From: a virus
IMG/VR virus record: IMGVR_UViG_3300033148_005591
Span: 1 to 35,186 of that record
Direction: 5' to 3' (one strand)
Length of the DNA stretch: 35,186 nt
Of the stretch, positions 1,985 through 35,186 are shown piece by piece. Both the position numbers and the translations under genes were made by a program. The notes under the pieces are model-generated. The model was not told the origin of the DNA and searched no databases. It saw nothing but the letters and a program-made list of their open reading frames with translations. Position 1 is the stretch's first letter. The number at the start of each line of letters is the position of its first letter.

Positions 1985-2140
1985 ACTGTGTCAAGGACGA
2001 ATCGCGTACCCAACGCCGGTTTCACTGTCGCGCGAAAATGCCGCAAACCGCAGCACGTGGCCGACAGCGACCGAATAGTAAGCGAATATCTCCCCTACAT
2101 TTAGCGTTCCAACTGCTTATTATGTCACGCCTTACGCTTC

Positions 2141-2184
2141 GACTCTTAATCAGCGGGTCGCAGGTTCGAGCCCTGCACGGCGTA
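2141..2184 (+). other. attP core: 3' half of tRNA-Lys(CTT)
   Basis: From 2141 to 2184 the sequence matches the 3' part of a tRNA-Lys: anticodon loop CTCTTAA with anticodon CTT at 2145-2147, the 3' anticodon strand, a five-base variable loop, a perfect T arm (GCAGG, loop TTCGAGC, CCTGC), the acceptor strand ACGGCGT and discriminator A at 2184. The 5' half is absent: there is no D arm, and the five bases before the loop do not pair with the 3' strand. A 3' tRNA fragment directly ahead of an integrase gene is the classic phage attachment site. Insertion there would restore the host tRNA-Lys gene. Confidence 0.85.
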
Positions 2185-2195
2185 GTCTGAAAGCC

Positions 2196-3269
2196 TTGCA
2201 AATGAACGACTTGGGGAACAAGCCCAAACGCCCGGAAAAGCGAGTATCCAATCCGGTATCCAATCGGCTTCCCGGCGGCCTCTGGAGGCATGCAAAAACG
2301 GGGCGGTGGTACTGGCGGTATACGGCGCAGAATGGGCAACGAAAGGTAGTGCCGCTGGTGCCCAGGGGCGGGCGGTACGCGACCAAGCAGAAGTCGGTAG
2401 CCGAGGCGATTCGGAAGATGATGTGCAGGGGCGTGTCGGCCCGGTCGCGGGGGCCGAAAGACAATGAGTACTGGCTCGATCAATACGAGCAGTGGTGCCG
2501 GTCGCGGGGCGGGGAGAAACAGGCGCAGACGAACCGCAACACCGCCCAGCGGTTCCTCGCCTCTCAGGCCGTCCGACAGGTCCACGAAATCGACGTGGAG
2601 CACGTACAGGCGTATCTGGATGCGATGACGGCAAGCCCGCGAACCATCCAGGCCCATAGGAACAGCTTGCATCTCTTTTGTAGATACCTTATCATCAGGA
2701 GGGAATTGGACGTGAATCCCGTCGTGGCTGTAGAAGTGAAGACGCCGGCCAAGAGGCCACCGCGGTTCCTGACGGACCGGGCGCTTGCGGTGTTTATCCG
2801 GCGGGTGGATCGGAAGGACCTGGAGATCCGCAACGCGGCCAGGATCGCCGCCTTTGCGGGGTTGCGGCTCGGGAGTTTGCGGGCATTGGAGTGGGAACAC
2901 ATCGGAGAGACGGGGCTTACCGTCCCCCTTACAAAGACGGGCGGCTATGCGATTGTGCCGTATGACAGGATGGACCGGCGGCTGAAAGAGACGATAGACA
3001 TCATGGGGCGGGGTAGGGGGGCGGTGTTCCCCGCCCGCAACCCCCGGTGGTGGAATGCACGAATCAAGGCCATTACAAAGCCGCTGCCGGTGTTCGGCGA
3101 ATTGAGGGGCGGAAGGGTCGGGAACCAGTGGCACCTCCTCCGCGCGACCTGGGCTGTCAACTGCGCGCGGAGGGGGGCCACGCTGTGGGAACTGATGGCG
3201 TGGGGCGGATGGACCGTGCCTCAGACAGTCATGCGGTACGTCAATGTCGCCCGAGCGGCGGGAGCCTAA
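2196..3269 (+). CDS. int: Tyrosine-recombinase phage integrase
   Basis: Catalyses site-specific integration and excision between attP and a host tRNA-Lys gene. All active-site residues are visible (numbering from the TTG start): R224 in AGLRLGSLRAL, K247 in TKTGG, H313-x-x-R316 in HLLRA, W339 in GGW, and the nucleophile Y348 in MRYVNV. Residues 1-80 are basic with a W-x-YW-x-Y motif typical of N-terminal arm-binding regions; about 90-180 form a SAM-like core-binding domain. The start is TTG 2196 or ATG 2202; neither has a strong ribosome site. Its stop overlaps that of the convergent protease gene by four bases. The 357-residue length is normal for the family. Confidence 0.95.
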   Translation: MQMNDLGNKPKRPEKRVSNPVSNRLPGGLWRHAKTGRWYWRYTAQNGQRKVVPLVPRGGRYATKQKSVAEAIRKMMCRGVSARSRGPKDNEYWLDQYEQWCRSRGGEKQAQTNRNTAQRFLASQAVRQVHEIDVEHVQAYLDAMTASPRTIQAHRNSLHLFCRYLIIRRELDVNPVVAVEVKTPAKRPPRFLTDRALAVFIRRVDRKDLEIRNAARIAAFAGLRLGSLRALEWEHIGETGLTVPLTKTGGYAIVPYDRMDRRLKETIDIMGRGRGAVFPARNPRWWNARIKAITKPLPVFGELRGGRVGNQWHLLRATWAVNCARRGATLWELMAWGGWTVPQTVMRYVNVARAAGA

Positions 3270-4126
3270 TAGAACACTGGTGAAATCGCCGTAGTGAACG
3301 CCTCTTCCGCCTCGCCCATCGTCAGGTAAATCACGCCGTCCGACGGGTCGCCCGAGGCCTCGCGCCCGTCGTATCCCCACGGGTTGTAGACGGTGATCCC
3401 CGTGGCGTCCGCGTCCAGAACGACATACTCGTGATTCGGCACGATCAGGTTCGTTCCGATCCCGCTGGCTACGGTATCGCCCGGCGCCAATAGGGCGAAG
3501 TCGCCGACCAACCGGCTGTCCCAGCCGGCGAACCAGCCCCACACCTGGAAGCCCCAGCCGTACGCCAAGGATGCGTAGGAGTCCATGCCATAGCGGACGT
3601 GGGCGCACGCCTTCTCCAGCAACGGACCCATGAGGCCGTCGGGCGCGCGGGCATAGATCAGTCGCCCGTTCTGTGCGGGGAGATCGGCGTCGATACGCAG
3701 GTACTGCGCGGTCCCCGCGTAGTCGTAATACTGCACCCAGTAGGTGCCGTCGCCGATGGCCGAGATCGCGTCCTCCAAGACGCCGGGGTCGATCAGGGCA
3801 ATGGAGGCCAACCCGGAAATCAGCCAGCAATCGGCAAGCCGGCCCTGAATGAAATCGCCGTAGTCTATCCCGTCGTCCACCAAAGACCCGTCGAACCTGT
3901 TGTACGCAAATGGGGTTGCCGGGTCCGCGTGGATGGGAACGTCGAAGACGCTCGTTCCCCAGTTGGCCTTCATGTCGATGAACTGGGCCAGGTCCGCATG
4001 GAATTGGCTCTTGAGTACTACGAAATCGTCTAGGTCAACGCCCCAGTCGCCGTTGAGGTCCCCTGGATAGGCCGACAAGAGGATTCGCGGCTCCAGCGGC
4101 TCGAGCATGCTACACATTTCGAGCAT
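3266..4126 (-). CDS. Secreted calpain-like (C2) cysteine protease with LEPR motif and half-dockerin
   Basis: Domains in order: LEPLEPRILLSA at about 8-19, the N-terminal motif of many exported planctomycete proteins; a dockerin-type calcium loop at about 22-42 (DLNGDWGVDLDDF); and a calpain-family protease core. The core shows the oxyanion Gln94 (QGRLADCW), catalytic Cys100, the PLLEKACAH helix that calpains share (168-176), His232 (NHEYVVLD) and Asn248 (VYNPWG), so the triad is complete and the enzyme is probably active. Family members cleave proteins, often in a calcium-dependent way. ATG 4126 overlaps the upstream small membrane gene by 17 bases; ATG 4108, giving MLEPLEPRILLSA, starts just after that gene's stop and is a good alternative. 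It is the last gene of the late leftward operon, after a holin-like protein and a lipoprotein. A role in host envelope breakdown or in conversion of the lysogen's surface is inference. Confidence 0.88.
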   Translation of the reverse strand: MLEMCSMLEPLEPRILLSAYPGDLNGDWGVDLDDFVVLKSQFHADLAQFIDMKANWGTSVFDVPIHADPATPFAYNRFDGSLVDDGIDYGDFIQGRLADCWLISGLASIALIDPGVLEDAISAIGDGTYWVQYYDYAGTAQYLRIDADLPAQNGRLIYARAPDGLMGPLLEKACAHVRYGMDSYASLAYGWGFQVWGWFAGWDSRLVGDFALLAPGDTVASGIGTNLIVPNHEYVVLDADATGITVYNPWGYDGREASGDPSDGVIYLTMGEAEEAFTTAISPVFY

Positions 4127-4247
4127 TCAGCAGATCCCGCACCTTGTAGACTGCCGCCTTGATGATGGGCAGGCCCAGCGCGGCAATGCCGATGCCCACA
4201 AACAGCGTCAGAATAATACACATAACCAGTGTCAGAACAGAATTCAT
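4110..4247 (-). CDS. Tiny single-pass membrane protein
   Basis: The 45-residue product MNSVLTLVMCIILTLFVGIG continues IAALGLPIIKAAVYKVRDLLNARNV: one or two closely packed hydrophobic segments and a basic amphipathic tail. Its ATG overlaps the stop of the preceding tiny membrane gene as ATGA, which fixes the start. Size, hydrophobicity and position next to an XhlA-like protein and a lipoprotein suggest a holin, antiholin or other lysis accessory, but no family was recognised. Confidence 0.7.
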   Translation of the reverse strand: MNSVLTLVMCIILTLFVGIGIAALGLPIIKAAVYKVRDLLNARNV

Positions 4248-4369
4248 GTTGCACCTTTCAGTTTCTTCCGGTTGTCCAGCCAGCCGACTATGAAAACGGC
4301 CAGAATCACCAGTTCGGCCAGCAGAAACGCCCACCAAGCCGCCTGGATCAGCGTGGGCTGGAACGTCAC
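4244..4369 (-). CDS. Tiny membrane protein, possibly with a displaced LEP motif
   Basis: A GTG start at 4369 gives 41 residues: VTFQPTLIQAAWWAFLLAEL, then VILAVFIVGWLDNRKKLKGAT. It has one strong transmembrane helix and a basic tail. Its stop overlaps the next ATG (ATGA). No Shine-Dalgarno is obvious at this GTG. A TTG at 4420 would overlap the lipoprotein stop and extend it to 58 residues. In another frame just upstream, a GTG at 4424 encodes LEPLEPGLLLD, resembling the LEPR motif of the protease gene; a one-base shift near 4370 would join that motif to this helix. The true N-terminus is therefore uncertain. Confidence 0.55.
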   Translation of the reverse strand: MTFQPTLIQAAWWAFLLAELVILAVFIVGWLDNRKKLKGAT

Positions 4370-4416
4370 GGTTCGGCGCGTCGCAGTTGTCCAGGAGGAG
4401 TCCGGGTTCAAGCGGC

Positions 4417-5001
4417 TCAAGCACCAATGAGCTTGTCCTTACGCCTCCCGTCCGCGACCGCGCCGCCGGCCAGACCCAGGAGGGCAAGGTTCGTCACCGC
4501 CGCGATGGTAGTAGCGGGGCTCAGCGTACCTTGGGTTGCCGCCATGGCCGCGCCGCTAAGGGCCTCGGTGATCCGCCGCTTGTACGCGTCTTGCCGGTCC
4601 AGGTCGGCGAACCCGGCCTCAACCTTCGCGGTCAGCGCCGCGGCCTCCGCTTGGAGTTGGGGCCGCGTGACCTTCTCGCCGGGGCTCAGCGTACCTTGGG
4701 TTGCCGCCATGGCCGCGCCGCTAAGGGCCTCGGTGATCCGCCGCTTGAGGGCCTCGGTGATCCGCCGCTTGTACGCGTCTTGCTGGTCCAGGTCGGCGAA
4801 CCCGGCCTCAACCTTCGCGGTCAGCGCCGTGGCCTCCGCTTGGAGTTGGGGCCGCGTGACCTTCTCGCCGGGGCTCAGGACGGACGCCGTGCGAGACTGG
4901 CAGCCCAACAGCGCCGTGGCCGCCAACAGGGCCACGAGCACCCCGATACACTTCCAACGATCATGGTCTGCAATCTTGGTAATCTTGTTCCACACGTCCA
5001 T
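4417..5001 (-). CDS. Lipoprotein with internal 55-residue duplication
   Basis: The 194-residue protein has a basic N-region, a hydrophobic segment and a lipobox (VLVALLAATALLGC), so it is probably lipid-anchored at Cys34. The rest is a helical module of about 55 residues present twice, LSPGEKVTRPQLQAEAAALT, then AKVEAGFADLDRQDAYKRRI, then TEALSGAAMAATQGT, with a third partial start. The upstream copy carries an extra KRRITEAL. The C-terminus has a further hydrophobic stretch (TTIAAVTNLALLGLAGGAV). It begins one base after the holin-like gene's stop. Lipoprotein plus holin-like gene recalls an outer spanin, but spanin identity is only inference; these repeats could instead form a periplasmic coiled coil. 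Confidence 0.7.
   Translation of the reverse strand: MDVWNKITKIADHDRWKCIGVLVALLAATALLGCQSRTASVLSPGEKVTRPQLQAEATALTAKVEAGFADLDQQDAYKRRITEALKRRITEALSGAAMAATQGTLSPGEKVTRPQLQAEAAALTAKVEAGFADLDRQDAYKRRITEALSGAAMAATQGTLSPATTIAAVTNLALLGLAGGAVADGRRKDKLIGA
4516..4869. repeat. Near-identical direct duplication, 165 bp and 189 bp copies
   Basis: Copy one spans 4516-4680 and copy two 4681-4869. They are almost identical apart from a few substitutions and a 24-base tandem duplication inside copy two (4724-4747 repeated at 4748-4771). The start of a third copy (ggggctcag) lies at 4870-4878. All unit lengths are multiples of three, so the reading frame is kept. The near identity points to recent duplication. 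Confidence 0.9.
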
Positions 5002-5002
5002 T

Positions 5003-5275
5003 TCAGGCTCCCTTGACTCTCTTGATCCAGTTCCAAAATGCGGTCACCGCGAATATTATGGTTGCGCTCACTGCAACCCACACCACGCGGGCGCGAGTCC
5101 TTTCCGCGCGTTCCAGCCTGTCAACGCGAACCATGATACCGTCCTTGCCGTTGCCGACGTAAATGGCCCTCATAAGTTCGTCTTGTTTCTCCGCCAGTTG
5201 ATCCAGCTTTTCCGAGTCGGCTTCCCGGCCCTCGATGAGTCGGGCCAACTGGGTTCTGATCTCGCTGTCTGTCAT
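5003..5275 (-). CDS. XhlA/holin-like protein with C-terminal membrane anchor
   Basis: The 90-residue protein has a long charged helical N-region (EIRTQLARLIEGREADSEKL, then DQLAEKQDELMRAI), the motif NGKDGIMVRVDRLERAERTR, and one C-terminal transmembrane helix (VVWVAVSATIIFAVTAFW) ending in a short basic tail. This is the layout of hemolysin XhlA-like phage proteins, which accompany holins and endolysins. The ATG overlaps the stop of the giant virion gene as ATGA. The family association is by layout only; the function could be holin, antiholin or another membrane role. Confidence 0.65.
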   Translation of the reverse strand: MTDSEIRTQLARLIEGREADSEKLDQLAEKQDELMRAIYVGNGKDGIMVRVDRLERAERTRARVVWVAVSATIIFAVTAFWNWIKRVKGA

Positions 5276-11591: not shown

Positions 11592-12491
11592 CTACGCTAC
11601 TGCGCCCGTCGTGATCTTGCGGTACTGGCCCCAGTGCACGCTTGCCGTCTTCAGTGACGTGCCGTTGAGGTCGATTGTGGAGCCGACCGGGTTGGCGTTA
11701 TTCGGATCGAAGAACGTGCCCTTGCCGTAGATGTCGATGGCCGTAATCGCCGCATCCAACCCCGGCGAGGCGGATAGATCAACGATACCGTTAGTGTAGA
11801 TAAACAGATCCGTGATGGTTTCGTTGCCGTTGTAGTTTAACCGCCCGGCGTAGACATATGCGGTTCCAATGTTGCCGTTTATGCCTTGGGTGGGGTTCAT
11901 CGTCACCGTGCCCCCGCGCACCGTCAACTCCTCCGCGTCGCACTCCAAGACGGTCACGCCCGCCCCGACCACGATCTTCGGCCCGTCGATACCTGCATGG
12001 TTACTGCAGTCTTTACCCACATATACGGTCGCACCGGCAAGGTTGTAGATGTAATCCACGTCGTGACCCGACGTGCCCCACCCGACGTACACCGTCGCAG
12101 ATGCGTTGGTGATATGGATCTCGGAGAATCCGTCCGCCCCCAGCCCTGGCAGGCGATAGGTGCCCGTACCCCTTATGGTGGCGTAGGCGTTGGCGTTACC
12201 GTCAACCTTGATCACATACGTTCCGCTACCCGCGAGCGTCCATATTGACGAGGCGGCGGCGCACCCGAGTTGCAGCGGATTCCCCGTTGTGCCGATGTTG
12301 ATGGCACATCCCTCCTCAATGGTGAACGCGCTAATAGTAACGGACGACTGATCCAGCCCTGTGTAAATGTTGCGCGCGGCGTTCCCTGGGATGATTACCG
12401 TATCATCGGCCACCGGAACCGCGCCGCCACTCCAGTTATCGGCAACATTCCACGAATCGCTCACGGTACCCAACCATCTACGAATAGCCAT
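11592..12491 (-). CDS. Beta-solenoid tail-spike/fibre-like protein, copy B
   Basis: The 299-residue protein opens with WLGTVSDSWNVADNWSGGAV, then PVADDTVIIP, a cap seen at the start of many beta-helix adhesins, followed by repeating Gly/Thr/Val/Asn-rich strands (TIEEGCAINIGTTGNPLQLG, NASATVYVGWGT, GGTVTMNP, GIVDLSA) typical of parallel beta-solenoids. It is clearly a paralogue of the neighbouring gene at 12497-13402: both share NWx(n)DDx-IIP, F-IE-GC--NIGT, ITNA-ATVYV-W and -GTFxDP. Such proteins usually form receptor-binding spikes or appendages. No glycanase residues could be identified. It begins five bases after the stop of copy A. Confidence 0.65.
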   Translation of the reverse strand: MAIRRWLGTVSDSWNVADNWSGGAVPVADDTVIIPGNAARNIYTGLDQSSVTISAFTIEEGCAINIGTTGNPLQLGCAAASSIWTLAGSGTYVIKVDGNANAYATIRGTGTYRLPGLGADGFSEIHITNASATVYVGWGTSGHDVDYIYNLAGATVYVGKDCSNHAGIDGPKIVVGAGVTVLECDAEELTVRGGTVTMNPTQGINGNIGTAYVYAGRLNYNGNETITDLFIYTNGIVDLSASPGLDAAITAIDIYGKGTFFDPNNANPVGSTIDLNGTSLKTASVHWGQYRKITTGAVA

Positions 12492-12496
12492 CTATC

Positions 12497-13402
12497 CTAG
12501 ATATTCCCTACCGTAATCCGCACATTCTCCCCCACGTCGATGGGGCTATCGTCCGGGTTCGGATCGCCGTAGACGTTGATAACCGTTCCGGCCGATGCGC
12601 GGCTCTCGGGGTCATTGAACGCACCCGAGCCGTGCACGTTGACCGTCGATACCGTCAGCGCCGACGTGGCCTTCGTCAGATCCACGGCGCCGCCGCTGTA
12701 GATGTGAGCGGTATCGAGTGTGCCGCCGACGAGATACAACGTCCCATCGTACATCGTCGCCGCGGTGATCGCCCCGGCATAGTGGGTGTGCGTCGCGCCG
12801 GTGTTCGTCACGGCCGCTAAGCCGCACTTGCTCACGCACGCTCCGCCGGTGAGCACAAGCGTAATGGCCGCGGGGTCTCCGGTCGCCACTGACGTACCCA
12901 GGTACAACGTCCCCGCCGACACAATCTTTGTGTCGATAACGGCCGTCTCGCTGTCCCGCCACGCTACGTAGACCGTGGCGGCCGCGTTGGTGATGTTCAG
13001 ATCGTCCGCCAGGCGTTCGCCGGAGTAGGATGCGAGGTGATAGGCGCCTGCACCCTGGATCGTGATCTCATCAACCCCCGCGGTGTTCGCGGCGACCTGG
13101 ATGTGGTATTCGCCGTCGCCGCCCCACGTCCAGTCGGCGGCGTCTTTCGCCCCCAGCCGCAGCGGCTCTTGCGGGGTTCCGATGTTCAGCGAGCAGCCGT
13201 CCTCGATGATGAACTTGGCGATGAATACGTCGTTGTGGTCGTCGCCGACGATGTCCTGAGAGACATTCGCATCGTTCGGGATAATGATGTTGTCGTCCGT
13301 CGCCGGTGCGGCCTCGGACACGGCCCCCGTCGATTCGACAAGCCAGTTGGTTGCTGTCCCGAATACTCCGTCAGTCGCTCCGGTCCAAATCAAAGTCGCC
13401 AT
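12497..13402 (-). CDS. Beta-solenoid tail-spike/fibre-like protein, copy A
   Basis: The 301-residue protein starts MATLIWTGATDGVFGTATNW and contains ATDDNIIIPNDA, FIIEDGCSLNIGTPQEPLRL, LNITNAAATVYVAWRDSE and many short beta-strand turns such as GGTLDTAHIYSGGAVDLTKA. Composition and periodicity indicate a parallel beta-solenoid. It is paralogous to 11592-12491 in order and spacing of motifs. The start has a G-rich ribosome site (GGGGGGA five bases ahead of ATG), like the capsid gene, suggesting strong late expression as a virion component. It overlaps the upstream small Cys-rich gene by 32 bases. A receptor-binding role is inferred. Confidence 0.65.
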   Translation of the reverse strand: MATLIWTGATDGVFGTATNWLVESTGAVSEAAPATDDNIIIPNDANVSQDIVGDDHNDVFIAKFIIEDGCSLNIGTPQEPLRLGAKDAADWTWGGDGEYHIQVAANTAGVDEITIQGAGAYHLASYSGERLADDLNITNAAATVYVAWRDSETAVIDTKIVSAGTLYLGTSVATGDPAAITLVLTGGACVSKCGLAAVTNTGATHTHYAGAITAATMYDGTLYLVGGTLDTAHIYSGGAVDLTKATSALTVSTVNVHGSGAFNDPESRASAGTVINVYGDPNPDDSPIDVGENVRITVGNI

Positions 13403-18295: not shown

Positions 18296-18415
18296 TTACG
18301 TCGCCGTGCGCAACGACCGAAACGGCCAGAACAACCACAGCCACAGGACCGTAACGGCCACGAAACGCAGCAGCCAATAGGCCGCGACGACCGATTTTCT
18401 CTCGTAGAATCTCAT
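18296..18415 (-). CDS. Tiny membrane protein of the sugar cassette
   Basis: The ATG at 18415 overlaps the acetyltransferase stop as ATGA and gives 39 residues: MRFYERKSVVAAYWLLRFVA, then VTVLWLWLFWPFRSLRTAT. It has one strongly aromatic transmembrane helix flanked by basic residues on both sides. Translational coupling to the acetyltransferase suggests it belongs to the cassette, perhaps to hold enzymes at the membrane. No family was recognised. Confidence 0.6.
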   Translation of the reverse strand: MRFYERKSVVAAYWLLRFVAVTVLWLWLFWPFRSLRTAT

Positions 18416-18960
18416 TTCACCCTCCTGGCCGGGTTGCCTACGTAGACGCCCGGTTCGGCGATGTCCCGAATGACCACCGAGCCGCACCCGATAACGGCCC
18501 ACGGCGCTATGCGAAGCCCCTCCCTGACGACCGCGTTAGCCCCCACCCATGCCCCTTCGCCCACGGTCACGGTTCCGCAGAGCACGGCGGCGGGCGCCAG
18601 GTGGGCCCAATCGCCAACAACACAGTCGTGCTCGACTATGGCCCCCGAGTTGACGATTGCCCCCCGACCCACCTTTGCGCCTACGTGCACCAGGGCAAAC
18701 GGCCCGACAAATACCCCGGACCCCAGTATCGCCGATCCGTCTACGAATGCCGTGGGATGCACCACTGTCACGAGCGTGCCCGAATCGCGCATCCGCCGAA
18801 CCCTGTTGTCCCCGATGGCGATAATCGCCTCGGCGTCCTTGTCCGGGAACGTGCATCCCGCATCATCGGTGAATCGCACCTCCCGCCCGGTCAGCCGTAC
18901 GGCGGCGGCGACGACGCGACCGTGCCCCCCCTTGCCGTGAATGGTCAGTTTAGGCGGCAT
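18412..18960 (-). CDS. PglD/NeuD-like sugar acyltransferase (left-handed beta-helix)
   Basis: The family transfers an acetyl group from acetyl-CoA to an amino or hydroxyl group of a nucleotide sugar. Residues 1-65 form a small Rossmann-like sugar-nucleotide domain (HGKGGHGRVVAAA, IIAIGDNRVRRM). Hexapeptide turns then follow from about 70 (AFVDGSAILGSGVFVGPFAL) to the end (VGNPARRVK). The catalytic-type His is present in VEHDC (H111), with a second His in DWAHLAP (H120), as in Campylobacter PglD. At 182 residues it is slightly shorter than typical members. It overlaps the radical SAM gene by 11 bases. Likely substrates are UDP-4-amino-sugars or sialic-acid-type sugars; which one is unknown. 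Confidence 0.88.
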   Translation of the reverse strand: MPPKLTIHGKGGHGRVVAAAVRLTGREVRFTDDAGCTFPDKDAEAIIAIGDNRVRRMRDSGTLVTVVHPTAFVDGSAILGSGVFVGPFALVHVGAKVGRGAIVNSGAIVEHDCVVGDWAHLAPAAVLCGTVTVGEGAWVGANAVVREGLRIAPWAVIGCGSVVIRDIAEPGVYVGNPARRVK

Positions 18961-19753
18961 CTCCAGGCCAGAATCGAGTCTTGTTGATTGCGGGGTAGAA
19001 GGCGGACAACCCGTTTTCGGGCCACGCCGGCGGGGTTCCGACGTATTCGCAGTCCCGGCACGGCGCGTAGGGCTCGCGATTCCCTATGAGCAGATCGCCC
19101 TTGATGCGATTGTATGCCGGGTCTTTCAAGAGCTCGGGGAGCGAGCAATCCCACGACAAACGCCGGTGTCCGTCGTTGCAGCACAAGGCGAACCGCCCTC
19201 GCGCCGTCAGGAAGATTTTCCGCGTGGGAGCCCCGCACACCTTGGCTCCGGCCGCTTTCGCCCGGTCGCTCTTGAAGCCGGTCCCGGCCCGGCTCAACCA
19301 TGCGGTCACAGGAAAGGCCGTAGCGTCTATCACGGCGAACCGTTCGGGTGGATAGCCGGATTCGCGGACAATACAGCCGATGCGGCGGGATGTGTCGTCG
19401 TTCTCGTACACATCCCACACAATCGAATCCACGGCCATGAGCGACCGCAGCATCGCCGGCGTGAGAGGGTCGCCGTTGGTGGACATCGCCAGCTTGGCGT
19501 TCGGAACCTTCGCCTTGGCCTCCGCGACAAACTCGACGAGCTTGGGATGCAGCGTCGGCTCGCCATGCCCGCAATAGACGATCCATTTATCGTAAGCCAC
19601 GGCCGCGAGGGCGTCCATAAGGGCCGCGTGCCGCTCGGCGGTGAGGTATGCTGGGGCGTCTCGATCTTCGGGCAACAGGGTCGTCCGGCAGAACCAACAC
19701 TTGCGAGTACAGGCGGTGGTGAGCTCGACCTCAACAATGCTATTGGCGATCAT
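18950..19753 (-). CDS. Radical SAM enzyme with SPASM-like C-terminus
   Basis: The iron-sulfur-binding CxxxCxxC motif is at 15-22 (CTRKCWFC), the glycine-rich SAM contact GHGEPTLHP at 62-70, and the STNG strand at 91-94. C-terminal cysteines at 173, 191-192, 203, 232 and 235 (KVCGAP, ALCCNDG, PCRDC) match a SPASM-type auxiliary cluster region. The enzyme would cleave S-adenosylmethionine to start radical chemistry. SPASM enzymes modify peptides or oxidise or rearrange sugars and aminoglycosides. Placement between a glycosyltransferase and an amino-sugar acyltransferase gene, with ATGA coupling, suggests sugar chemistry here, but a peptide substrate is not excluded. Confidence 0.88.
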   Translation of the reverse strand: MIANSIVEVELTTACTRKCWFCRTTLLPEDRDAPAYLTAERHAALMDALAAVAYDKWIVYCGHGEPTLHPKLVEFVAEAKAKVPNAKLAMSTNGDPLTPAMLRSLMAVDSIVWDVYENDDTSRRIGCIVRESGYPPERFAVIDATAFPVTAWLSRAGTGFKSDRAKAAGAKVCGAPTRKIFLTARGRFALCCNDGHRRLSWDCSLPELLKDPAYNRIKGDLLIGNREPYAPCRDCEYVGTPPAWPENGLSAFYPAINKTRFWPGDAA

Positions 19754-20424
19754 ATCGCCTCCATGTACTGCCGTACGTACTCATCGAACCGGCCGCCCCA
19801 CTTGGAGTCCGATATGTGGAAGATCACTTGTGATTCCGTGGGGCGGTTCAGGGGATAGCGGTCTGCGGGCAGGGGATGGTCATTGTAGAGCAGCCGCCAC
19901 ATGCCCGCCACAAGGCTCTGTTCGCACACGACGCCGGGCCATTGGCCCCGATCCAGCCCCCGCAGACGGCAACGGCGCAGGTATTCAATCGCAAGATCCT
20001 TGAGTCCCAGGAAATCGCTCTTCCGATACGAATACATCCCGCCGCACAATTTTGGGTGCGCGATCGGGAATGCCTTTCCAAGCGAGGCCCATACCTCAAG
20101 CCCTTCAACCGGGTCGTGTCCGGCCACGCCCTGATAGGCGGGAACCGGGAAATCCGTCGGGTCGGAGAATACCAGGCAATCGCTGTCCAGCGAGTAGATG
20201 TTCTCCGTCGGACTGACGTACGGAACATCGAACACGCGGCGCAGAACGGGCATCCGTCGCACCATCTCCCGGATGTCCGGCGGCAACGGGGCCTCCGTCT
20301 CACGGTCGGTGTCCAGAATCACCATCGGCTCCACGCCGGACCAATACTTGCGAATCCCGGCGACGCAGGCTTCCGTGAACGCGCGGTCGCGCTCGCATGT
20401 GACGATGATGGCGGTCGCTGTCAT
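19750..20424 (-). CDS. GT-A-type glycosyltransferase
   Basis: ATG 20424 overlaps the preceding stop (ATGA), giving 224 residues. The N-terminus TATAIIVTCERDRAFTEACV is a Rossmann-like nucleotide-sugar binding start, and YSLDSDCLVFSDP provides the DxD metal/UDP-sugar motif. A mid-region Gly/Tyr loop (CGGMYSYRKSDFLGLKDL) and IFHISDSKWGG near the end fit a retaining or inverting GT-A fold. It is not closely similar to the two tandem glycosyltransferases upstream. Acceptor and donor are unknown. Confidence 0.75.
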   Translation of the reverse strand: MTATAIIVTCERDRAFTEACVAGIRKYWSGVEPMVILDTDRETEAPLPPDIREMVRRMPVLRRVFDVPYVSPTENIYSLDSDCLVFSDPTDFPVPAYQGVAGHDPVEGLEVWASLGKAFPIAHPKLCGGMYSYRKSDFLGLKDLAIEYLRRCRLRGLDRGQWPGVVCEQSLVAGMWRLLYNDHPLPADRYPLNRPTESQVIFHISDSKWGGRFDEYVRQYMEAI

Positions 20425-21110
20425 TTGATCTCCTGTGCAGCGGCCCACCGCGCGGCGCTGTGACGGTCGATCAATACGGGGGGGCCGATGTGCTTGACCT
20501 CGGCGTCACAACAGACATAGGGCTGAATGCCGTGTTGGCGAAGCCGCTCGCACCAGTAGGCGTCCGGGCCGATACCACCGCGCTTACTCGGCGGCAGCAC
20601 CCCAAACCACGGTTCGGACACGCGGTCGAACAGCGAACGGTGAAAGAGCGCGGCGCACATGCCGACGCTGTCCACCGGATGTACGCCATCGGCCGGCACA
20701 TTCTCCCACTGGGCGCGGGTCTTGACATTGCCGAGCTTCCGCACCGACACGGCGCCCGGTCCGTACGGCGGGGTTCTCGTGTAGGCCAGGGCGGCGACGA
20801 ATGGGCGGTCCTCGGGGTCGGCGACGGCGCGCAGGCGCTCGTAAAGGTCGTCGGACGGCACAATGTCGTCCTCGATCCACAGAAACCAATCGGCCCTGCG
20901 ATTCTCCGCCCGCTCCCGCTCGAACATGGCCTGCACGTACCAATACACGCAGAACGGGTAGGTCAGGCGATCGTGGGGGTGTCTCAGCAACCACAGCCGG
21001 TCCTCGGCGAACCGCCTGGCCAGCCGAAACCCGAGCTTCTGAAGCGCGAACCACGCGGGGGTCTTGACCGCCTCATAGATGGCCGTGGCCCAGGCGAGAG
21101 TTTCAGTCAT
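20421..21110 (-). CDS. Glycosyltransferase-like protein, tandem copy 2
   Basis: The 229-residue protein contains YPFCVYW, NRRADWFLWIEDDIVPSDDL (EDD at 80-82, the DxD-type site), RPFVAALAYTR, VGMCAALFHRSLFDRVSEPW and GIQPYVCCDAEVKHIG. Each of these has an aligned counterpart in the upstream gene at 21103-22008, so the two are paralogues made by tandem duplication. The fold is GT-A-like with an acidic metal site and a late His. It lacks the N-terminal 50 or so residues of its paralogue. It overlaps the paralogue's end by eight bases. Confidence 0.75.
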   Translation of the reverse strand: MTETLAWATAIYEAVKTPAWFALQKLGFRLARRFAEDRLWLLRHPHDRLTYPFCVYWYVQAMFERERAENRRADWFLWIEDDIVPSDDLYERLRAVADPEDRPFVAALAYTRTPPYGPGAVSVRKLGNVKTRAQWENVPADGVHPVDSVGMCAALFHRSLFDRVSEPWFGVLPPSKRGGIGPDAYWCERLRQHGIQPYVCCDAEVKHIGPPVLIDRHSAARWAAAQEIK

Positions 21111-22008
21111 TGCGCCGTCCGTTGCGTGGCTTGGGGGGCGTAATCACGGTGGCCCCGGTCGCGGGGCTTACCGTGCTCTTCGCCTCCAGAACATCCGCGT
21201 GGTCCTGACGACGAGGCGACCGTTGTTGCCACTGTTCGGAGTATTCGCGGTTGATCCGCAACTTGCGGCCAAGATGAATGACCTTCGCATCGCAGCAGAC
21301 ATGGGGCTGAATGCCCGCGCGATTAAGCTGAACCGACCACCAGTAATCGGGGTTCATGCCCGTTGTGTTGAGCGTCGGCGCCGAAACCCCAAACCACGGC
21401 TCGGGAACCTTCTCGAACAGCGAACGGTGGAACAACGCCATACACAGTCCAACATGCGACACGGCGAATGTCCCGGTTTCGGGGGCCTTGACCCACTTCT
21501 TGGGCTTGCCCTCGATGAACTCCGTTACCGCCGGGCAGTGCGGCTCGAACCGGTCGTAAGGCGTCGCCGAGACAAACGGGCGGAGATACGGGTTGGCGGC
21601 TGCACGTAGGGCCTCGAAATCGTCCGGCGTGGCGATGACATCATCGTCCATCCACAGATACCAATCGAACCGGCGATTCTGTACCTTCTCCGTCTTGAAC
21701 GCACAGGCCAGAGGCCAATACACGGCGAACGGATAAGGCATCCGCTCAAAGGTGGGCAGAATCCACAGATTGCCCGGCGCGTATTTGTAACAGAGGTATC
21801 TGTTCAATCGCAGGAGCATGTCGGTCGATTCCTGCGGCTGCGTCTCATAGACCGCCCGGCCCATCGCCAGAACTTCCCCGCCGAATCGCGGGGTGTAATC
21901 CTGCCAATCGCTCCTGGCGGGGTAGCGGCGGGTCACGTCCTCCATGGTGATCGTGTACGTCCACGATTCGCCGTCGATCCGCTCGTCGATGTCGCGGATA
22001 TCGTCCAT
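21103..22008 (-). CDS. Glycosyltransferase-like protein, tandem copy 1
   Basis: The 301-residue first gene of the cassette has AGGGAG seven bases ahead of ATG 22008. Key motifs: YPFAVYW (92-98), NRRFDWYLWMDDDVIATPDD with DDD at 121-123, RPFVSATPYDRF, VGLCMALFHRSLFEKVPEPW and GIQPHVCCDAKVIHLG. These match copy 2 closely and indicate a GT-A enzyme with a metal-binding acidic triad. A C-terminal tail of about 50 residues rich in Arg, Pro and Thr is absent from copy 2. A hairpin at 22034-22056 separates it from the capsid genes. Confidence 0.75.
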   Translation of the reverse strand: MDDIRDIDERIDGESWTYTITMEDVTRRYPARSDWQDYTPRFGGEVLAMGRAVYETQPQESTDMLLRLNRYLCYKYAPGNLWILPTFERMPYPFAVYWPLACAFKTEKVQNRRFDWYLWMDDDVIATPDDFEALRAAANPYLRPFVSATPYDRFEPHCPAVTEFIEGKPKKWVKAPETGTFAVSHVGLCMALFHRSLFEKVPEPWFGVSAPTLNTTGMNPDYWWSVQLNRAGIQPHVCCDAKVIHLGRKLRINREYSEQWQQRSPRRQDHADVLEAKSTVSPATGATVITPPKPRNGRRND

Positions 22009-30899: not shown

Positions 30900-31820
30900 A
30901 TGCGAATCACGATCACTGTCACAGCCGCCGAGCATGTGGTTTACAGTCGCGACTGGACCGACACGGTCGATTCCTACGAGGCGGCGGTCGCCTCGATGGA
31001 TGAGGCGCTCGACGAGACACGGAGCGACCCGCACTGGCACAGGTTCCACACTCTCGACGACGCAGCCCTCTGTTATGAGCAGGACATCCCGGCCGCGCTC
31101 GCACAGATCCTACAGGATGGGCCGGCGCTCGAGCTCTGCACCGCCGGCGGCACCACGTTCTATCCGGCGACCCCAGACGGCTGGCGCGGCCTGGCCTACG
31201 ATCTCGCCGACGCCTACGGTGCGGCCGACTACACCGTGACGCTGACGGAGGCCGCCGGCGACCCACATCCTCAACCCATCGGGGATCTGGTGCTGCGCTA
31301 TGAACAGGACGATGAGTGCGGGGCGATGCCCCCGGCGGTGGAGGAGCTCCTCGACACAGCCTGCGAGATCGCCGACAGCTACGATAACGACTCTGACGAC
31401 GTGGGATGGATCGTCATCCTCCACATCCTCAGCGCTGAGGACGCCGACCGAATCTGCCGGCTGATCGACGCCCACGGCAACCCCGACGAGGTATCGATCC
31501 TCCGAGACGAGGTCCCGCGCCAATACGTGCCTGTCACCCTGCGCCAGATCGAGGCTGCCGGTGTTCCGCTCGACGCACAACAGGGTATCGACGTAGCCGA
31601 ACACGCCGAAATGCTCGAGCGCGAGGGCGATTTCCGGCTCGCCATCAGCCCGCATGGGACTACGCTACATGTCTACGAGCACGTCGGATTCGAGCCCGCC
31701 GAGTGGCGCGAGTGCGTCCGATGGACCAATGAGCGAGGCGAACGCACGCGCGCCTCCGTAGGGCGCGCCCGCAACAGGCTCTATGATCTGAAGAAGACCG
31801 TGACTGCGGAGGAATCCTGA
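30900..31820 (+). CDS. Acidic protein of unknown function
   Basis: The 306-residue protein starts MRITITVTAAEHVVYSRDWT behind a strong AGGAG. It is very acidic through the first 260 residues (EQDDECG, DSYDNDSDDVG, HGNPDEVSILRDEV) with a basic last 30 (GRARNRLYDLKKTV). A helical stretch repeats the theme AxDLADAYG and CEIADSYD. No signal peptide, membrane helix or catalytic motif was found and no family was recognised. It has its own promoter and is followed by a Cro-like gene, so early expression is likely. An anti-defence or DNA-mimic role fits the charge but is only a guess. Confidence 0.6.
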   Translation: MRITITVTAAEHVVYSRDWTDTVDSYEAAVASMDEALDETRSDPHWHRFHTLDDAALCYEQDIPAALAQILQDGPALELCTAGGTTFYPATPDGWRGLAYDLADAYGAADYTVTLTEAAGDPHPQPIGDLVLRYEQDDECGAMPPAVEELLDTACEIADSYDNDSDDVGWIVILHILSAEDADRICRLIDAHGNPDEVSILRDEVPRQYVPVTLRQIEAAGVPLDAQQGIDVAEHAEMLEREGDFRLAISPHGTTLHVYEHVGFEPAEWRECVRWTNERGERTRASVGRARNRLYDLKKTVTAEES

Positions 31821-31822
31821 GA

Positions 31823-32050
31823 ATGCTACACTTCCAGGCGTGGGCCGATTATCTCGGCCTCACACAATCCGCCATCTCCGCCCGGACCGCCGAGCAGGGC
31901 CATTTCGTCCCCCCGGCCAGCGTTCAGAAAATGTTCGCGGGAACCCGAAACCCGCGTGTCAGCACGGCCGAGACAGTCGCCGCGGCGATGGGCCTGACGC
32001 TGGGGGATCTGGAGAGCCCGCCCCCGAGGCCGCGGCAGACAGGAGCATGA
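31823..32050 (+). CDS. Small Cro/XRE-like helix-turn-helix protein
   Basis: The 75-residue protein has an XRE-type fold: FQAWADYLGLTQSAISARTA forms the helix-turn-helix, a turn region KMFAGTRNPRVSTAETVAAA and MGLTLGDLE forms the last helix. The RNPRVST-ETVA-AMGLTLGDLE pattern is usual in Cro/CI-like repressors. It begins two bases after the acidic gene's stop. It may repress the promoter at 30810-30839 or act in the lysis-lysogeny switch. Confidence 0.75.
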   Translation: MLHFQAWADYLGLTQSAISARTAEQGHFVPPASVQKMFAGTRNPRVSTAETVAAAMGLTLGDLESPPPRPRQTGA

Positions 32051-34685: not shown

Positions 34686-34810
34686 TGGACGCCTCCCGGC
34701 ATTGCTATCCACGCCTTGTGCAGGGCCTCCAGTTCGCTGTCGGTGAAAGACTCATCCGCCGCCCAGCCCATGTCGCGCGCGTTGGCGCGCAGGTATTCGA
34801 TTTCAGTCAT
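34682..34810 (-). CDS. Small phage protein (42 aa)
   Basis: The product MTEIEYLRANARDMGWAADE continues SFTDSELEALHKAWIAMPGG VQ. Both ends overlap neighbouring genes with ATGA, which fixes the frame. It looks alpha-helical and acidic, with no known family. It is easy to miss because of its size. Confidence 0.65.
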   Translation of the reverse strand: MTEIEYLRANARDMGWAADESFTDSELEALHKAWIAMPGGVQ

Positions 34811-35186
34811 TCATTCACCATCCTTTCCCGCCGCCTCGGCGGCGGCATATGGCTCTCCAGTATCCATCGCTCCGTCGGCGTCCAGTCCTCGCGCGCCAGG
34901 AGATCCGCCAGGTGCGGCCGCACCTGACGCTCAATCGCGGGCCAACACCCCTCTACCGCCATGCCCAGGCGCTGCTCCCAGTAGTCGTGGCACATCGCAT
35001 CCGGACGCACCCGGCCGACGCGCAATTTCTTCGCCGGGACACCCGGCATGCACATCAGCCGCCAGTAGAGCACGCCGCAGGCGAGCGACGCGCCGTCGGT
35101 GTCGATGCCCCCGCCGGCGGTATCGATCTCCCCGCTGCCGGTGTCGATGCGCCCGCCGGCGGTGTCGATGTAGCCGCCGCGGGTGC
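34807..35186 (-). CDS. Repeat-bearing protein, N-terminus off the right edge
   Basis: The reading frame is open to the edge, so the gene probably starts outside the window. The N-terminal visible part is a seven-residue repeat (IDTAGGR, IDTGSGE, IDTAGGG, IDTDGAS), followed by LACGVLYWRLMCMPGVPAKK, a Cys/His-containing middle (RPDAMCHDYWEQRLGMAVEG) and a basic C-terminus with WTPTERWILESHMPPPRRRE. If the contig is circular, its frame continues in register from the pentapeptide gene at the left edge. No family was recognised. Confidence 0.55.
   Translation of the reverse strand, partial: TRGGYIDTAGGRIDTGSGEIDTAGGGIDTDGASLACGVLYWRLMCMPGVPAKKLRVGRVRPDAMCHDYWEQRLGMAVEGCWPAIERQVRPHLADLLAREDWTPTERWILESHMPPPRRRERMVNE
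35098..35186. repeat. 21-bp tandem repeat at the right edge
   Basis: Four 21-base units, gtcgatgcccccgccggcgg and variants, run to the edge and encode the IDTAGGx heptads on the minus strand. A GC-rich repeat at the window end probably marks the point where assembly stopped. Confidence 0.85.

Follow-up and report, generated by a model that had tools for sequence, protein, structure and literature searches.

The window analysed here is the whole 35,186-base virus record IMG/VR IMGVR_UViG_3300033148_005591, which probably represents a temperate tailed phage and whose sequence suggests a planctomycete host. Its late genes lie on a single strand, running from a terS-like gene (30793) through terL, portal, capsid, adaptor and tail genes to a calpain-family (C2) cysteine protease as the last gene, and the late operon appears to be complete within the record. 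After a 1677-aa protein, probably an internal virion protein, the gene order is holin-like protein, lipoprotein, TM1, TM2 and protease (Table 1). The integrase gene converges on the protease gene from the other side, the stop codons of the two overlapping. A preliminary description of this DNA had placed the protease at the end of the late operon, with a holin-like protein, a lipoprotein and two tiny membrane proteins upstream. The gene order and the overlap with TM2 bear out the position, and each upstream gene was recovered with its coordinates and its TM segment or lipobox. The length given there for the large protein, 1667 residues, is corrected to 1677 aa counted from the first GTG.

Table 1. 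Features of the protease locus, in window coordinates
Feature	Position	Strand	Basis or remark
Probable attP: anticodon and T arms, tRNA-Lys(CTT)-like, no D arm	2127..2187	+	Rfam tRNA alignment, sub-threshold
Tyrosine integrase	2196..3269	+	PHROG phrog_1, E 4.2e-40; PF00589
Calpain-family (C2) cysteine protease, 286 aa	3266..4126	-	Pfam PF00648, catalytic residues, fold match
Catalytic His232 ... Asn248 (HEY...NPWG)	3383..3433	-	H232 invariant, N248 at least 90%
Catalytic Gln94 ... Cys100 (QGRLADC)	3827..3847	-	Q94, G95 and C100 invariant in alignment
EF-hand/dockerin-like single loop DLNGDWGVDLDD, residues 23-34	4025..4060	-	By eye
LEPR-XLL export/sorting motif, residues 8-19 (LEPLEPRILLSA)	4070..4105	-	NCBIfam NF012209
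TM2, 45-aa single-TM protein	4110..4247	-	Hydropathy 2.77
TM1, 41-aa single-TM protein	4244..4369	-	GTG start; alternative TTG at 4420 gives 58 aa
Lipoprotein, lipobox LLGC, internal tandem duplication	4417..5001	-	Sequence; spanin- or lysis-accessory-like position
Holin/XhlA-like small protein, charged N-terminus and one C-terminal TM	5003..5275	-	Hydropathy; no profile match above cut-off
Large protein, 1677 aa	5272..10305	-	Profile scans (Pfam, PHROGs, NCBIfam) and tblastn; first GTG start

Minus-strand repeat-coding frames occur at both ends of the record, with pentapeptide repeats on the left (1-202) and 7-residue repeats on the right (34807-35186). Their position on the same strand at both ends fits a circular genome that was opened inside a single repeat gene. 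Because none of the genes could be recognised as a replication gene, part of the early region may be absent from the record. Within the structural operon, positions 18412-22008 hold genes for a PglD-like acetyltransferase and a radical SAM protein and three glycosyltransferase-like genes, which may serve to decorate virions or the host with glycans. Two consecutive tail-spike-like proteins of ~300 aa each are encoded at 11592-13402; they are alike (paralogues by eye) and have no profile matches. On the plus strand at 30900-32050, between terS and the early region, lies a gene pair, one encoding a 306-aa orphan and the other a small HTH-like protein.

The protease and the genes around it

The gene at 3266-4126 encodes a complete calpain-type core, a predicted enzyme, as judged from its profile match, conserved catalytic residues and modelled fold. 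The Pfam profile PF00648 (Peptidase_C2) covers residues 81-194 at an E-value of 2.7e-12 (46.8 bits, cut-off 23.8), and a phmmer search of the PDB with the protease returned calpains only. When the protease was aligned with the full C2 domains of 15 bacterial loci (cyanobacterial, myxobacterial and actinobacterial), Gln94, Gly95, Cys100, His232, Tyr234 and Pro249 were invariant across the 16 sequences and Asn248 was conserved in at least 90%, with the catalytic Gln, Cys, His and Asn present in the order expected of C2 enzymes. The AlphaFold model, built from the full-domain alignment, has a mean pLDDT of 75; within residues 70-286 most ten-residue blocks reach 77-94, and two (near 181-190 and 251-260) stand at about 65. 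All 40 matches at E<=1e-3 in a fold search of the PDB were calpains, with TM scores up to 0.64 by query. Coordinates, profile, alignment and fold agree on the intact C2-type protease with Gln94, Cys100, His232 and Asn248 that had been described before, and a chance ORF is ruled out by profile, fold and residues.

The phage protease resembles several known cysteine peptidases and differs from each of them. In the bacterial calpain homologues (MEROPS C2; Calothrix/Scytonema, Archangium) the catalytic Gln, Cys, His and Asn align with those of the phage enzyme at 23-30% identity, but the homologues belong to cells and are 340-630 aa long, whereas the phage protease is compact (286 aa), carries an LEPR motif and belongs to a late operon. 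Porphyromonas Tpr is a named bacterial calpain homologue that lies outside our alignment. We know of no role for bacterial calpains in lysis. A viral fold library gave a single strong match, the calpain of the giant algal virus of Aureococcus anophagefferens (A0A076FI00; E 3e-9), which has 16% identity to the phage protease and no apparent LEPR motif or lysis cassette. The papain-fold endolysins of the CHAP and NlpC/P60 types are likewise cysteine peptidases in lysis-gene position, with weak fold similarity (E >0.02); the phage protease, however, is of the calpain family by sequence and fold, has no wall-binding domain and probably has protein as its target.

Gene overlaps run through the cassette. 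The holin-like gene overlaps the 1677-aa gene by 4 nt, the lipoprotein gene follows after a 1-nt gap, TM1 and TM2 meet in an ATGA-type overlap, and the protease ATG lies 17 nt within the end of the TM2 gene, whose stop falls inside the protease start region. A sigma-70 consensus scan of the minus strand, from 5.6 kb to the gene, found no promoter-like site for the protease, and the codon use of the protease correlates at 0.96 with that of the other phage genes. The overlaps, the lack of an own promoter-like site and the phage-like codon use favour late co-expression of the protease with the holin-like, lipoprotein and TM genes, and speak for a gene that has long resided in the phage. Gene order and overlaps would thus fit an endolysin-like setting, with late expression beside a holin-like gene that itself has no profile match. 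XhlA/holin-endolysin cassettes likewise combine a small coiled-coil/TM protein, more small membrane proteins and an enzyme at the operon end, but in this phage the enzyme is a protease and an XhlA profile match is absent. The lipoprotein has a weak TssJ-like profile match, under cut-off. Inside its gene, at 4515-4878, is a tandem duplication (68 nt at 100%, 131 nt at 98%) that looks recent, which suggests that the cassette recombined lately.

The protease gene is truly phage-borne, because attP and the integrase lie outside it on its other side; the same arrangement rules out host contamination as its source. Judging from its sequence, the tRNA-like segment directly before the integrase is probably the attP site of the unintegrated phage, and no whole tRNA was found in the window. 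Next to attP, at 1016-1834, is a gene for a membrane protein whose N-terminal zinc ribbon weakly resembles the MJ0042/ECs_2282 types; the gene is a possible lysogeny cargo.

N-terminal motif and host

At its N-terminus, MLEMCSMLEPLEPRILLSA, the protease scores 20.3 bits with the NCBIfam LEPR-XLL model NF012209, above the cut-off of 17, but the sole place in the window matched by Pfam PF07595 (Planc_extracel), 4070-4108, stays below its cut-off (11.5 bits, cut-off 25.5). In Rhodopirellula baltica, RRLxxExLExRxLLA is an N-terminal surface-export motif, and 52 Tuwongella proteins have a similar one (PMC8567305). The phage protease has the N-terminal ExLExRxLL in common with the planctomycete LEPR/Planc_extracel proteins and differs from them in being phage-encoded and in lacking the usual preceding arginines. 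We read the motif as a predicted surface-export tag. Since LEPR-XLL is also found outside the planctomycetes, in Vibrio and Limnohabitans proteins, a planctomycete is the likely host but one that we infer only. The planctomycete-type N-terminus claimed in the preliminary description thus survives as a motif by NF012209, without the second profile and with Planctomycetota deduced from the motif itself. What had been called a half-dockerin is reduced to one EF-hand-like loop recognised by eye, as the dockerin profile gave no match to the protease in a Pfam scan.

The idea that planctomycetes have unusual, protein-rich envelopes agrees with the literature. Most Planctomycetales are without peptidoglycan-synthesis genes, have protein-rich, cysteine-rich walls and make use of surface-export motifs of the ExLExRxLL type; early-branching planctomycete lineages retain these genes (PMC8567305).

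A second LEPR-type start (VLEPLEPGLLLDN) lies on the minus strand at 4393-4424, in a frame other than those of the annotated small genes. It is identical to the protease start at 25 of 32 nt and probably remains from a duplication or replacement that took place there.

Searches for an endolysin and for relatives

No lysozyme, amidase or endopeptidase was found by Pfam and/or PHROGs among ~130 ORFs, which comprised the named genes, scanned singly (Pfam, PHROGs and NCBIfam), and 104 further ORFs on both strands (Pfam and PHROGs). The C2 protease was the sole peptidase matched in the profile scans, and Pfam and NCBIfam found no peptidoglycan-hydrolase domain in it. A search for classic lysin catalytic motifs in 31 main proteins gave nothing credible, and profile scans of the 1677-aa protein, suspected earlier of hiding a lysin, turned up none. 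Profile and motif scans therefore agree with the earlier statement that no muramidase, amidase or endopeptidase is recognisable in the window. This absence is moderate evidence only, since Pfam finds neither the terminase nor the portal of the phage itself (0 of 2) and the best that PHROGs achieves for the portal is E 0.011. An endolysin that is very divergent could have escaped the profiles.

In the phage and virus collections searched, the protease also appears to be rare. By tblastn, the C2 protease was found in none of 50,697 phage genomes, and the same holds for the portal and the 1677-aa protein. Among IMG/VR viral contigs, the pattern LEPLEPRxLLSA had 0 matches and a three-sequence C2 alignment detected no C2 protease, in scans of limited sensitivity and in viral collections that may leave out the window's own record. 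Three IMG/VR matches to the pattern QGxLxDCWL were all spurious short frames. In a review of bacterial calpains, planctomycetes are represented by a single homologue and the text does not speak of phages (PMC4631099). Our C2 search of genome contigs, a set with planctomycete genomes outside it, returned cyanobacteria, myxobacteria, actinobacteria and one Melainabacteria genome. In these collections, this phage would be the first tailed phage known to carry a calpain-family enzyme.

Scanning IMG/VR with the terminase, protease, capsid and portal one by one confirmed no relative of the phage. The terminase has relatives at ~25% identity among diverse podovirus-like phages, including Stx phages. 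Three contigs from a terminase motif scan were rejected as relatives, being linked to the phage solely by ~25% terminase identity. In 193 genomes from the phylum of one C2 match (an Archangium MAG) the terminase had only matches of 27-32%, and a search of plasmids for the integrase found none.

Possible roles of the protease

Our data suggest, with a probability of roughly 0.4, that the protease is the envelope-breaching enzyme of the lysis cassette. Transcription of the operon late in infection would produce the holin-like protein, the lipoprotein, the two tiny membrane proteins and the protease, whose translation would be coupled to that of TM2. The holin-like and TM proteins would make the inner membrane permeable or give a signal there, and the protease would reach the envelope by way of the LEPR-type surface-export motif of the host. 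There it would cut wall or surface proteins, allowing virions to leave a cell that relies on protein and not on peptidoglycan for its wall. If the host has the wall type without peptidoglycan, a peptidoglycan endolysin would achieve little, and it would make sense for a protease exported to the surface to take its place. It is a more doubtful proposal that a surface-exported calpain-family protease has in fact replaced a peptidoglycan-degrading endolysin, because the host wall is held together by protein; this would be a lysis mechanism previously undescribed. A lysis or envelope function had been suggested before, and the C2 gene, the motif, the operon position, the lack of a recognisable endolysin and the literature on walls all speak for it, but the host, the export, the target and the lytic role are what we infer from them.

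A close rival, almost as likely as envelope breaching, is that the protease is late-expressed or lysogenic cargo derived from a host surface-protein gene, acting as an extracellular enzyme while an unrecognised protein carries out lysis. Such cargo could be produced in the late phase, as Shiga toxin is, or in lysogens, and could benefit the lysogen or its kin or alter the cell surface, for example against superinfection. Cargo genes are often located between the last late gene and int/attP, exactly where the protease is found, and an export motif with an EF-hand-like loop is typical of host surface proteins. The out-of-frame copy of the LEPR start suggests recombination at this place, and the terminase relatives include Stx phages, which carry late-expressed cargo. 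It is harder to reconcile cargo with the overlap with TM2, the lack of an own promoter-like site in the sigma-70 consensus scan and a codon use that is fully phage-like, and the scans found no other enzyme to perform lysis. The two readings differ in whether lysis needs Cys100.

The other explanations are less probable. The protease is unlikely to be an accessory or spanin-like factor that clears surface proteins (S-layer-like, stalk, holdfast) at release while a divergent lysin does the main work: its position and motif would be as expected for envelope breaching, Pfam misses the phage's own terL and portal, and early-branching planctomycetes keep peptidoglycan-synthesis genes (PMC8567305), but profile and motif scans give no candidate lysin in the late operon. 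We consider a virion maturation or entry protease improbable, even though the gene lies in the late operon near structural genes and no other phage protease was recognised. A surface-export motif would be senseless in a cytoplasmic enzyme, maturation proteases are usually encoded between portal and capsid, and this phage has a separate scaffold-like gene; a capsid-maturation protease is rejected on the export motif and position. Chronic, non-lytic release, in which a lysis enzyme would be unneeded and the protease would act elsewhere (for example on grazers or competitors), is very improbable, as the presence of holin-like, lipoprotein and TM genes points to a probable lysis cassette. However, a deep-sea planctomycete phage is reported to be released without lysis (PMC10945688), which makes the need for lysis itself uncertain.

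It is still an open problem how phages get out of bacteria without a normal peptidoglycan wall. If envelope breaching is indeed its role, a protease in the endolysin position would answer it for planctomycetes in a concrete way that can be tested. Such a protease would also connect the LEPR surface-export motif with phage biology, and the enzyme may be a possible tool for opening planctomycete cells.
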